This document shows, piece after piece, positions 1 through 10,204 of a stretch of DNA of 64,000 nt. Made by a program: the position numbers and the translations under genes. The notes below the pieces were generated by a model. It had not been told where the DNA came from and ran no database searches. It saw only the letters and a program-made list of their open reading frames with translations. The DNA lies in the NCBI GenBank assembly GCA_029252045.1, contig JAQXCD010000031.1:62001-126000 (forward strand), given 5' to 3'. This DNA is from Sulfitobacter sp. (GTDB lineage Bacteria > Pseudomonadota > Alphaproteobacteria > Rhodobacterales > Rhodobacteraceae). Position 1 is the first letter of the stretch, and each line of letters begins with the position of its first letter.

Positions 1-28
1 ACGTGCATCAAGAGCATATGCACATGCC

Positions 29-43
29 GCATAGCAGCATTGC
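29..43 (+). repeat. Upstream repeat copy A (pairs with 298-312)
   Basis: The 15-mer GCATAGCAGCATTGC recurs with one mismatch at 298-312 (GCATAGCTGCATTGC). In both places it follows a TGCACAT..GCCGCATA block (20-33 and 271-287). Each copy lies upstream of a transcription unit that ends in a CCUCCC-loop terminator, so a shared regulator-binding element is plausible. No regulator is identified. Confidence 0.5.
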
Positions 44-79: not shown

Positions 80-211
80 AGAAAGATGGCATGAAAGCAA
101 TCCTCCCGATGGTTTTCTTGAATACCGAAGCGGCCTCCATCCTCCTCCCGGAGGTTCGCTTCATCCTTTTGGCGGCGATATCACCTCCCTGATATTGTCG
201 CCATTTTTTTT
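80..211 (+). ncRNA. CcsR/cuckoo-type small RNA with CCUCCUCCC loop
   Basis: Three consecutive hairpins expose pyrimidine-rich anti-Shine-Dalgarno loops. Hairpin 93-117 (GAAAGC/GTTTTC) has CCTCCC in its loop. Hairpin 127-162 (GAAGCG and CCTCC paired with GGAGG and CGCTTC) presents exactly CCTCCTCCC at 141-149. Hairpin 171-202 is a 12-bp stem with loop ACCTCCCT, followed by eight T residues at 204-211, which is a Rho-independent terminator. This is the hallmark layout of the alphaproteobacterial cuckoo/CcsR RNAs, which in Rhodobacter accompany a DUF1127 gene, as here. The 5' end is a guess; the transcript might begin further left. The family assignment is by motif and context only. Confidence 0.72.
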
Positions 212-297
212 GCCCGCAGAAAATACCCTGTCACAAAATTGACATAATTTACGCTACGGAAACAACATCTTGCACATTTGCCGCATATGCAAAAAGC

Positions 298-312
298 GCA
301 TAGCTGCATTGC
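298..312 (+). repeat. Upstream repeat copy B (pairs with 29-43)
   Basis: GCATAGCTGCATTGC matches the copy at 29-43 in 14 of 15 positions and contains the small inverted repeat GCTGC-ATT-GCAGC (303-315). It lies just upstream of the sigma-32-like promoter of the DUF1127 unit, which fits an operator or activator site. Confidence 0.45.
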
Positions 313-322
313 AGCATCGGTT

Positions 323-350
323 CTTGTAACGCATGTAAAAATCCCTAAAT
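323..350 (+). promoter_or_regulatory. Sigma-32-like promoter of the DUF1127 unit
   Basis: CTTGTAA (323-329), a 13-base spacer and CCCTAAAT (343-350) resemble the RpoH consensus CTTGAAA-N11-15-CCCCATNT. It sits about 40 bases before the DUF1127 start. RpoH-type control of DUF1127/CcsR units is known in Rhodobacter, and an rpoH gene is present at 54123-55019. The match is by eye. Confidence 0.5.
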
Positions 351-391
351 ACTGTTCACAACAAGACGCAATGAGATGAAAAGAGAGCAAC

Positions 392-610
392 ATGGCTTAC
401 TTCACAGACACAACCGTATCCGTAGCAGCGCAACCACGCCGCGTCGCAGCATTTCTCGACGCAATCGCGCTGAAGCTGCGCCAGCGCAAAGCCTACAACC
501 AGACATTCAACGAGCTGTGCAAAATGACACAGCGCGACATGGCCGACCTCGGCCTGTGCCGCGGTGATATCCGCCGTCTGTCCCGCGAAGCGGCACAGAT
601 GGTAAAATAA
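392..610 (+). CDS. DUF1127 family small protein
   Basis: This 72-residue basic protein ends in a DUF1127/YjiS domain: a helix around residues 38-50 followed by the typical DMADLGLCRGDI stretch near residues 50-61, with Arg-rich flanks. DUF1127 proteins are small RNA-binding or stress-related proteins. One in Rhodobacter (CcaF1) is co-transcribed with the CcsR small RNAs and affects their processing. Here the gene follows a sigma-32-like promoter and precedes a run of hairpins with CCTCCC loops (611-785), so the same partnership is inferred. The start is supported by AGAGAGCAAC directly upstream. An overlapping frame at 376 is judged spurious. Confidence 0.85.
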   Translation: MAYFTDTTVSVAAQPRRVAAFLDAIALKLRQRKAYNQTFNELCKMTQRDMADLGLCRGDIRRLSREAAQMVK

Positions 611-785
611 TTCGAATTCCCTGCGGTCCTTTCCTACCATCGGGTCGCAGGTGAATACGCAGTACGGCAGAGTCTCTACTCCCTGATGACCCTGTGCTGC
701 GACAGCTGCATCTTTCGTTCCTCCCGATTGAAAGGTGCATCTCATAGAGCGGCGGTCCCCACCTCCCTGGGGCCCGCCGTTTTTT
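611..785 (+). ncRNA. CcsR/cuckoo-type hairpin array in the DUF1127 3' UTR
   Basis: Directly after the DUF1127 stop codon come hairpins at 620-651 (CCTGCGG/TCGCAGG), 665-699 (CGGCA.AG/CT.TGCTG, CTCCC in the loop), 707-739 (10-bp stem TGCATCTTTC/GAAAGGTGCA, loop containing TTCCTCCCG) and 749-780. The last is a terminator with loop ACCTCCCT, the same octamer loop as the terminator at 171-202, followed by T6. The repeated exposure of CCTCCC suggests several processed small RNAs that bind Shine-Dalgarno-like targets, as for Rhodobacter CcsR1-4. Processing sites cannot be seen. Confidence 0.65.
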
Positions 786-9700: not shown

Positions 9701-10204
9701 ATGTACCCCAAGGTCTACACCGACTACATGACCCGCCACGCCATCTATGGCCCCGTGCGCACCCTGCCGACGCCTACGTTCTTCTACGGGATGGAGCCCA
9801 GCGACGAGATCGCAGCCGAGATCGACCCCGGCAAAATCCTCGAGATCCGCATGCAAGCGGTAGGCGACACAAACGAAGACGGCGATGTGAAGGTGTTCTT
9901 TGAGCTCAACGGCCAGCCCCGCGTGATCCGCGTGCCGAACCGTCTGGTCAAGGCAACGACGGTGCAGCGCCCCAAAGCCGAGACAGGCAACCCGAACCAC
10001 ATCGGCGCACCGATGCCGGGTGTTGTTGCCTCTGTGGGTGCGGTTGTCGGCGCATCGGTCAAAGCCGGTGATCTGCTGCTGACCATCGAAGCCATGAAAA
10101 TGGAAACCGGCCTGCACGCCGAGCGGAACGCGGTGGTGAAAGCTGTGCATGTCAGCGCAGGCGGCCAGATCGACGCCAAGGACTTGCTGATCGAGCTGGA
10201 ATAA
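6764..10204 (+). CDS. pyc: Pyruvate carboxylase
   Basis: A 1146-residue single-chain biotin enzyme that converts pyruvate, bicarbonate and ATP to oxaloacetate, an anaplerotic step important in Roseobacters growing on C2/C3 compounds. Domains in order are biotin carboxylase (residues 1 to about 460, with ATP-grasp SWGGGGRGMR and the EVNPRVQVEH motif), the carboxyltransferase TIM barrel from about 535 (TTMRDGHQSLLATR, with the metal-site HFHTHD), the PC tetramerisation/OADA region, and a C-terminal biotinyl domain with EAMKMETG. The biotinylated lysine is near residue 1113. The length is normal for the family. The ATG is preceded by AAAGG. It appears monocistronic, with a hairpin at 10227-10264. 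Confidence 0.98.
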   Translation: MTEFSKILIANRGEIAIRIMRAANEMGKTTVAVFAEEDKLGLHRFKADEAYRIGKDLGPVAAYLSIDEMIRVAKASGADAIHPGYGLLSENPDFVDACAQNGITFIGPKADTMRALGDKASARRVAVQAGVPVIPATEVLGDDIAAIKKEAAEVGYPLMLKASWGGGGRGMRPIYNEGELEEKVREGRREAEAAFGNGEGYLEKMIMKARHVEVQILGDSHGDIYHLYERDCSVQRRNQKVVERAPAPYLTEKQRAHVCELGRKICAHVNYECAGTVEFLMDMETEEFYFIEVNPRVQVEHTVTEEVTGIDIVQAQILIAEGKTIAEATGKASQADIQLQGHALQTRITTEDPLNNFIPDYGRITAFREATGMGIRLDGGTAYSGGVITRYYDSLLVKVTAKAQTPGAAIARMDRALREFRIRGVSTNIAFVENLLKHPMFLNNTYHTKFIDENPDLFIFEKRLDRGTKVLTYIADITVNGHPETKDKPLPARAARTPQPPVSRAEPMMGTRNLLEQKGPKAVADWMGQQRQLLITDTTMRDGHQSLLATRMRSHDMIKVAPAYASNLPTLFSVECWGGATFDVAYRFLQECPWQRLRDIRNKMPNIMTQMLLRASNGVGYTNYPDNVVQHFVKTAATSGVDVFRVFDSLNWVENMRVAMDAVQEAGKVCEGTICYTGDIFDPERAKYDLKYYVAMGKELKAAGAHVLGLKDMAGLLKPAQARVLVRALKSEVGLPIHFHTHDTAGIATATILAASEAGVDAVDCAMDAFSGNTSQATLGSVVEALRHTDRDTGLDMTAVREISDYWEEVRGQYTAFETGMQAPSSEVYLHEMPGGQFTNLKAQAASLGLDDRWPQVARTYRDVNQMFGDIVKVTPSSKVVGDMALMMVSQGLTRAQVEDPSLDVSFPVSVIDMMRGNLGQPPGGFPDGIVKKVLKGEKPNTDRPGAHLAPVDLEAVRKELSAQLDGMAVDDEDLAGYLMYPKVYTDYMTRHAIYGPVRTLPTPTFFYGMEPSDEIAAEIDPGKILEIRMQAVGDTNEDGDVKVFFELNGQPRVIRVPNRLVKATTVQRPKAETGNPNHIGAPMPGVVASVGAVVGASVKAGDLLLTIEAMKMETGLHAERNAVVKAVHVSAGGQIDAKDLLIELE

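Follow-up and report, generated by a model that had tools for sequence, protein, structure and literature searches.

Small RNAs whose hairpins expose C-rich, anti-Shine-Dalgarno loops are already known, and alpha-r14/NfeR1, the cuckoo RNAs and ccaF1-CcsR1-4 are the closest described systems. NfeR1/alpha-r14 of Sinorhizobium and other Rhizobiales is described as a free-standing RNA with three hairpins and anti-Shine-Dalgarno loops (PMC10746234), and the cuckoo RNAs as hairpin modules in variable number that share one loop motif on diverged stems (PMC3927594). In Rhodobacter (Cereibacter) sphaeroides, the link of CcsR to DUF1127 genes has been named the CIN1 locus, and CcaF1 and CcsR1-4 are reported to lie on one transcript that is cut by RNase E (PMC10253847). 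In Rhizobiales, LsrB is reported to activate NfeR1 (PMC10746234), and VtlR to activate AbcR RNAs and DUF1127 genes, including in Brucella (PMC7486931, PMC12595884). In our literature search, no paper mentioned CcsR alongside either VtlR or LsrB, and none linked anti-Shine-Dalgarno small RNAs to Sulfitobacter or Roseobacter; the 2015 cuckoo paper lay outside that search.

The locus compared here with these systems occupies, on the plus strand, the first 800 bases of the window, the 64-kb stretch of Sulfitobacter DNA that was analysed. A promoter element and an array are followed by a second promoter element, a DUF1127 gene and a second array, with the following parts:

17-43, plus strand: box 1, LsrB/VtlR-like, with TGCA-N6-GCAT at 19-32 and GCATAGCAGCATTGC at 29-43; matrix score 40.5 bits
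55-83, plus strand: promoter P1, −35 TTGTGC at 55-60, 17 nt, then a predicted −10-like TTAGAA at 78-83; predicted start near 90
93-211, plus strand: free-standing unit 1, three hairpins and an intrinsic terminator
93-117, plus strand: unit 1 hairpin 1, loop CCTCCC at 102-107
127-161, plus strand: unit 1 hairpin 2, loop with CCTCCTCCC at 141-149; arm-swap test in 29 loci
170-211, plus strand: unit 1 hairpin 3 and terminator, loop ACCTCCCT at 183-190 (CCTCCC at 184-189), T-run at 204-211; arm-swap test in 29 loci
286-312, plus strand: box 2, LsrB/VtlR-like, with TGCA-N6-GCAT at 288-301 and GCATAGCTGCATTGC at 298-312; matrix score 31.8 bits
323-351, plus strand: promoter P2, −35 TTGTAA at 324-329, 16 nt, then −10 TAAATA at 346-351; predicted start near 358
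392-610, plus strand: DUF1127 gene, ccaF1-like, 72 aa; Pfam PF06568, 33.4 bits against a cut-off of 23.3
616-785, plus strand: unit 2, four-hairpin array 3' of the DUF1127 gene
616-656, plus strand: unit 2 hairpin 1, loop CCTACC at 633-638 (motif broken); arm-swap test in 25 loci
658-701, plus strand: unit 2 hairpin 2, loop with ACTCCC at 678-683; arm-swap test in 25 loci
704-742, plus strand: unit 2 hairpin 3, loop CCTCCC at 720-725; arm-swap test in 28 loci
746-785, plus strand: unit 2 hairpin 4 and terminator, loop ACCTCCCT at 761-768 (CCTCCC at 762-767), T-run at 780-785; arm-swap test in 27 loci

An earlier, sequence-only reading of this DNA had counted at least six hairpins. We count seven, six of which hold a CTCCC core in the loop (as CTCCC, CCTCCC or CCTCCTCCC), and its coordinates and loop statements were right. 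It had also correctly described the two terminator loops as identical, the partner gene as DUF1127, which Pfam confirms, and the layout as one free-standing unit plus one unit in the 3' position behind that gene. Its proposal of a duplicated array is right only in a loose sense: the repeat is a 30-bp promoter element (14-43 versus 283-312, 83% identical). The arrays themselves share just the motif, with a longest blastn match of 10 nt, and a recent array duplication is rejected. At 633-638 the window has CCTACC where all seven aligned relatives have CCTCCC, and hairpin 1 of unit 2 looks like one decayed module. In 32 of 33 genus loci the upstream neighbour is a divergent gene with the Walker motif of the Mrp-type ATPase; Pfam puts the window's copy in the ParA/NUBPL family. 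On the other side, the minus strand at 784-1520 encodes an HTH_26 regulator together with a membrane protein that is DUF2975-like (below the Pfam cut-off), both genes pointing at unit 2.

CCTCCC is not enriched in the 64-kb window (29 observed versus 36 expected), and a single CCTCCTCCC is unremarkable there (0.5 expected). Three loop-exposed cores within 150 nt, however, occur at exactly two places on both strands of the 64 kb, namely units 1 and 2, so that the non-random part is the clustering of the motif in apical loops rather than its frequency. Fold energy beat all 200 shuffles for each unit, with z-scores of −4.8 (unit 1) and −6.9 (unit 2). Conservation was followed through 33 DUF1127 loci, comprising 30 among the matches listed (L007-L036, the window's own included) and three named Sulfitobacter loci; the search that yielded L007-L036 gave a DUF1127 match in 35 of 36 genus genomes. 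The array tests used 29 of these 33, without L024 (contig end), L033 (array poorly delimited) and L038 and L039 (copies of L009 and L012). When arms were swapped between loci, native arms paired better than chimeric ones at all six hairpin positions, and none of 2,000 permutations per position, which ignore relatedness among loci, reached the native mean; 29 loci entered for the two upstream hairpins and 25 to 28 for the four downstream ones, where L015 was omitted. RNAalifold on eight loci found changes on both sides in 7 of 27 pairs of unit 1 and 15 of 38 pairs of unit 2, its consensus of unit 2 omitting the first hairpin (616-656). Together, the arm-swap tests across Sulfitobacter support the stems. 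Unit 1 as a coding sequence (frame 3-242) is unlikely. From first to last loop, the distances in the window's subgroup are 82, 81, 75, 78, 80, 78, 78 and 81 nt, and the reading frame is not kept because they vary by steps other than three; some open frame runs across unit 1 in 21 of 29 loci, which stop-poor C-rich DNA permits.

The sequence-only reading had placed the arrays with the cuckoo/CcsR RNAs and named a covariance search as a check, with the lack of any hit as one sign against it. That search did return alpha-r14 and CcsR1 matches, all below the Rfam gathering scores. For alpha-r14 (RF02344, gathering score 58.8), unit 1 reached 37.4 bits (E 5.4e-5) and unit 2 28.8 bits (E 0.0046); for CcsR1 (RF02791, gathering score 65.3), the values were 22.4 and 16.8 bits. 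Thus alpha-r14 is the nearest Rfam family of both arrays, with suhB and CcsR1 lower and all of them below gathering; when the whole genome was searched, unit 1 alone reached E≤0.001. Alpha-r14 matches with E≤1e-3 were present in 53 of 58 genus genomes (one over gathering); in the family sample, where E≤0.01 was the limit, 51 of 61 genomes had a match (11 over gathering). Each of these searches gave none in 14 controls. These matches, together with structure, loop motif and DUF1127 neighbour, bear out the proposed kind. Judged by structure, motif, gene neighbour and intermediate scores, the window arrays are diverged alpha-r14 relatives, and by the Rfam rule they are non-members.

Each of the described systems shares part of this architecture. 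NfeR1, as described, resembles unit 1 in its three hairpins with anti-Shine-Dalgarno loops, its free-standing position and an LsrB-type site upstream of a sigma-70-like promoter. In contrast, the full CCUCCUCCC in each of three loops, the alpha-r14 trait, was not found in unit 1, which has it just once, at 141-149, the other loops being CCTCCC, and 37.4 bits stand against a gathering score of 58.8. As in ccaF1-CcsR1-4, C-rich-loop small RNAs and a terminator lie behind a small DUF1127 gene, of 72 aa in the window and 71 aa in Rhodobacter; this is the arrangement that marks CIN1. Unlike ccaF1-CcsR1-4 in its published description, the locus adds an upstream free-standing array with its own promoter, and both of its promoters carry an LsrB/VtlR-like box, whereas the Rhodobacter promoter is described as RpoHI/RpoHII. 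With the cuckoo RNA family it shares hairpin modules in variable number, a common loop motif and diverged stems; compared with what the precursor paper (PMC3927594) describes, the tandem of a free-standing and a 3' array sets the window apart.

An array followed by a DUF1127 gene and another array was found in 28 of 29 Sulfitobacter loci, with at least two cores on each side; L032 has a single downstream core. The upstream array comprises two to four hairpins, counted by eye, and all four downstream positions are filled in 23 of 28 position-binned loci. Five close relatives (L019, L022, L023, L025 and L026) have four upstream hairpins rather than two or three, with near-repeated stems, as if upstream modules had been copied. 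Across 61 family genomes from 60 genera, searched with one pattern, two boxes at most 300 nt apart occurred in only two genomes, both Sulfitobacter; this pattern misses diverged boxes, and 14 of the 61 gave no match at all. The usual order in other genera is one box, DUF1127, array. Among 30 box matches retrieved from the family sample, 12 have at most one mismatch, and C-rich clusters follow in 11 of these, L144 having none. Upstream of the box, no C-rich cluster was found within 700 nt at any of these 12 sites in other genera, L155 showing one lone core. Pfam confirmed DUF1127 in all seven other-genus proteins tested; L159 has a two-mismatch box and is without an array. At L140, L156 and G180:C7 (60 bits), the array directly follows the box with no gene between. 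On these comparisons, the tandem of an array with a DUF1127 gene and array looks new and has so far been seen in one genus only. Five loci of other genera (L139, L152, L155, L158 and L160) carry at least ten successive C-rich loop cores behind DUF1127, far above the window.

Both P1 and P2 have TATGCA-N6-GCATAGCnGCATTGC, which ends 11 nt ahead of the TTG of the −35. The LsrB/VtlR site published from NfeR1, TGCA-N6-GCAT (PMC10746234), is exact at both window boxes, and the form given as GCAT-N3-TG-N3-T (PMC7486931, PMC8844928) is exact at box 2 and has one mismatch at box 1. Promoters were compared in 30 genus loci (the 33 less L024, L038 and L039): TGCA-N6-GCAT is exact in 5 P1 and 22 P2 sites, TTG lies 26-27 nt past the box start in all 30 at P1 and all 30 at P2, and the −35 reads TTGTGC in 29 at P1 and 11 at P2. 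A box matrix trained without the window's genome hit the window at the two boxes only, with 40.5 bits at box 1 and 31.8 at box 2; in ten simulated 64-kb sequences its highest score was 14.1 bits. If transcription starts seven bases past the −10, both boxes fall at about −61 to −49, which is also where the site of PabcR1 has been placed (PMC8844928).

The box together with TTGTGC, allowing up to three mismatches, gave 106 matches in the 61 family genomes versus 7 for the reversed control. Of the 19 sites with at most one mismatch, at least 15 are followed on their own strand, at a distance of up to 900 nt, by an alpha-r14 match among those listed; the sites without one among the matches listed are G186, G191 and G180:C12, and G162 was not placed. 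A scan of the window's own genome with the loose pattern GCATANCNGCNTTGC yielded 32 matches versus 15 for the control (15 loci inspected), and one with TGCA-N6-GCAT-N22-TTG yielded 128 versus 20 (12 loci retrieved). Besides the window boxes and a site before a DUF1127 gene on contig C4, the matrix scan of these loci gave L095, which scores 15.9 and has a correctly placed TTG; it has open frames on both strands and looks coding. The presumed control box common to both units looks new. As in the LsrB/VtlR regulon described for Rhizobiales, one box type stands before anti-Shine-Dalgarno RNAs and DUF1127 genes at a similar distance from the start; unlike there, the genome is without a recognisable LsrB/VtlR.

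LsrB has been called unique to Rhizobiales (PMC11975290), the LsrB/VtlR gene adjoins trxB (PMC7486931, PMC11975290), and the trxB-vtlR order is called well conserved in the class (PMC7486931). In our class sample, a LysR-like frame lies downstream of trxB in 13 of 30 loci; 12 of these frames are mostly 45-73% alike, taking best pairs, and one of the trxB-linked frames was checked by Pfam. The window's own genome, a draft that is 90% complete, has no LysR gene beside trxB, which is flanked by Lrp/AsnC-type and ATP-sulfurylase genes. A search of the same draft for an LsrB/VtlR ortholog gave 22 LysR matches; the best of these share 30-33% identity across most of their length, and none stands out clearly. 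The top-scoring LysR frame against a trxB-linked LysR protein (L130, C22:86414-87283, minus strand) has one TAG inside the match, from either error or decay. As this search brought up no clear LsrB/VtlR ortholog, the reader of the box may be another LysR protein, or the box may serve a different factor. Overall, the box may link the Sulfitobacter arrays to the LsrB/VtlR regulon, with perhaps another LysR protein as its reader.

Taking as observed the hairpins with their conservation and paired changes, the boxes with their spacing, and the gene order in the genus, we infer a scheme of transcription, processing and target pairing in which units 1 and 2 are, in our judgement, likely to be two co-regulated sources of small RNA of the cuckoo/alpha-r14, anti-Shine-Dalgarno kind. 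P1 would yield a free-standing RNA of ∼120 nt with three hairpins that ends near 211, like S. meliloti NfeR1. From P2 would come the DUF1127 mRNA, with small RNAs released by cleavage from its 3' four-hairpin array, as described for ccaF1-CcsR1-4. By base pairing to the G-rich ribosome-binding sites of their target mRNAs, the C-rich loops are predicted to block translation. For the DUF1127 protein a role like that of CcaF1 is probable, namely RNA binding and fine-tuning of maturation or turnover. Both units would be switched on together by a LysR-type activator bound at the LsrB/VtlR-like box. For the target step, a genome search for the exact 9-nt target GGGAGGAGG-N1-10-ATG found two sites, and its control none, a rarity that counts against the proposed mRNA silencing; as a raw count, a 5-nt complement lies no more than 20 nt from the first ATG in 7 of 72 window frames of at least 200 aa. 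That the DUF1127 mRNA silences itself was considered and rejected, as its leader is without a good complement to CCTCCC.

The same RNAs could instead be switched on by RpoHI/RpoHII as in Rhodobacter, with the box minor or unrelated. The sequence-only reading had pointed to the RpoH promoters of the Rhodobacter system. RpoH control of both units is not supported, given the P1 −35 of TTGTGC and the shared box, which that reading had not mentioned; it may apply at P2. The window's P2 can be read as CTTGTA-N15-CCTAAATA, which resembles the RpoH1 consensus of S. meliloti, CTTGAA-N16-CCTATAT (PMC8844928), and this likeness is seen in the window and less elsewhere in the genus. Rhodobacter RpoHI/HII sites, described as TTG and TAT (PMC10673084), are too loose to decide. 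An RpoHI/RpoHII promoter is reported at ccaF1-CcsR (PMC10253847), and a second R. sphaeroides DUF1127 gene is placed under RpoHI/HII (PMC10673084). However, P1 keeps TTGTGC in 29 of 30 loci and has no CC-rich −10 in the window, and the 27-bp box is the stronger common feature, which leaves RpoH as the common switch rather unlikely.

Other alternatives concern what the arrays are. If unit 1 were a leader attenuating DUF1127 transcription rather than an independent RNA, its upstream position on the same strand and the terminator at its end would be expected, and a S. meliloti DUF1127 gene is indeed reported to be attenuated in its leader (PMC12218461). That case as described needs a translated upstream frame, whereas here an open frame spans unit 1 in only 21 of 29 loci and the first-to-last loop distance in the window's subgroup shifts by non-three steps; moreover, a second conserved promoter with its own box stands between unit 1 and the gene in all 30 loci, and we regard a leader as quite improbable. 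It also seems improbable to us that the main role of the arrays is to sequester the DUF1127 protein, Hfq or RNase E, as sponges or decoys, instead of pairing with mRNAs: the many near-identical loops per RNA and the few exact targets fit such a role, but NfeR1 loops are reported to silence ntrB, which mutating three NfeR1 motifs relieves (PMC10746234), and the flhR-regulator mRNA is a target of CcsR1-4 (PMC8307010). As for chance or base composition as the origin of the C-rich loops, the unenriched CCTCCC would agree with it, and the idea is contradicted because the arm-swap test favours native arms; with clusters at these two places only, and paired changes and conservation through the genus, we give it practically no credence. 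Two co-regulated sources of anti-Shine-Dalgarno RNA remain our preferred reading.

A wider interpretation, which we offer tentatively, is that Rhodobacteraceae lacking LsrB have kept the LsrB/VtlR box, and that another LysR-type regulator runs anti-Shine-Dalgarno arrays and DUF1127 genes as one regulon; through the tandem promoters of Sulfitobacter, one signal would then immediately produce a free-standing RNA and, alongside it, an RNA that is processed and coupled to a protein. The locus joins two lines of work, on LsrB/VtlR control of small RNAs and DUF1127 in Rhizobiales and on the Rhodobacter ccaF1-CcsR operon. If the box works, control of such RNAs would be wider than LsrB itself, and a 27-bp probe could serve to isolate the regulator. 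Why DUF1127 proteins accompany anti-Shine-Dalgarno RNAs becomes testable at this locus, a simple system in which one copy is coupled to the protein and its neighbour is free of it.

DUF1127 genes elsewhere show further arrangements. In the window's own genome, a DUF1127 gene on contig C4 (L001, match at 9942-10049, minus strand) is preceded by an LsrB/VtlR-like box at the usual TTG distance and has no hairpin array. This box is nearly palindromic, with 16.8 bits on the gene's strand and 23.1 on the other, and the site rests more on its place before DUF1127 than on its score, because the coding-like L095 scores 15.9. A matrix scan found no box at the other two DUF1127 genes of this genome. In several relatives, an alpha-r14 match also follows a second DUF1127 gene, lying some 300-450 nt behind it, so that the gene-array pairing occurs twice per genome (G026:C1:915327/915780, G003:C16:1385596/1385143, G009:C1:886230/886692, G030:C1:883104/883560 and G007:C45:4122/4614).
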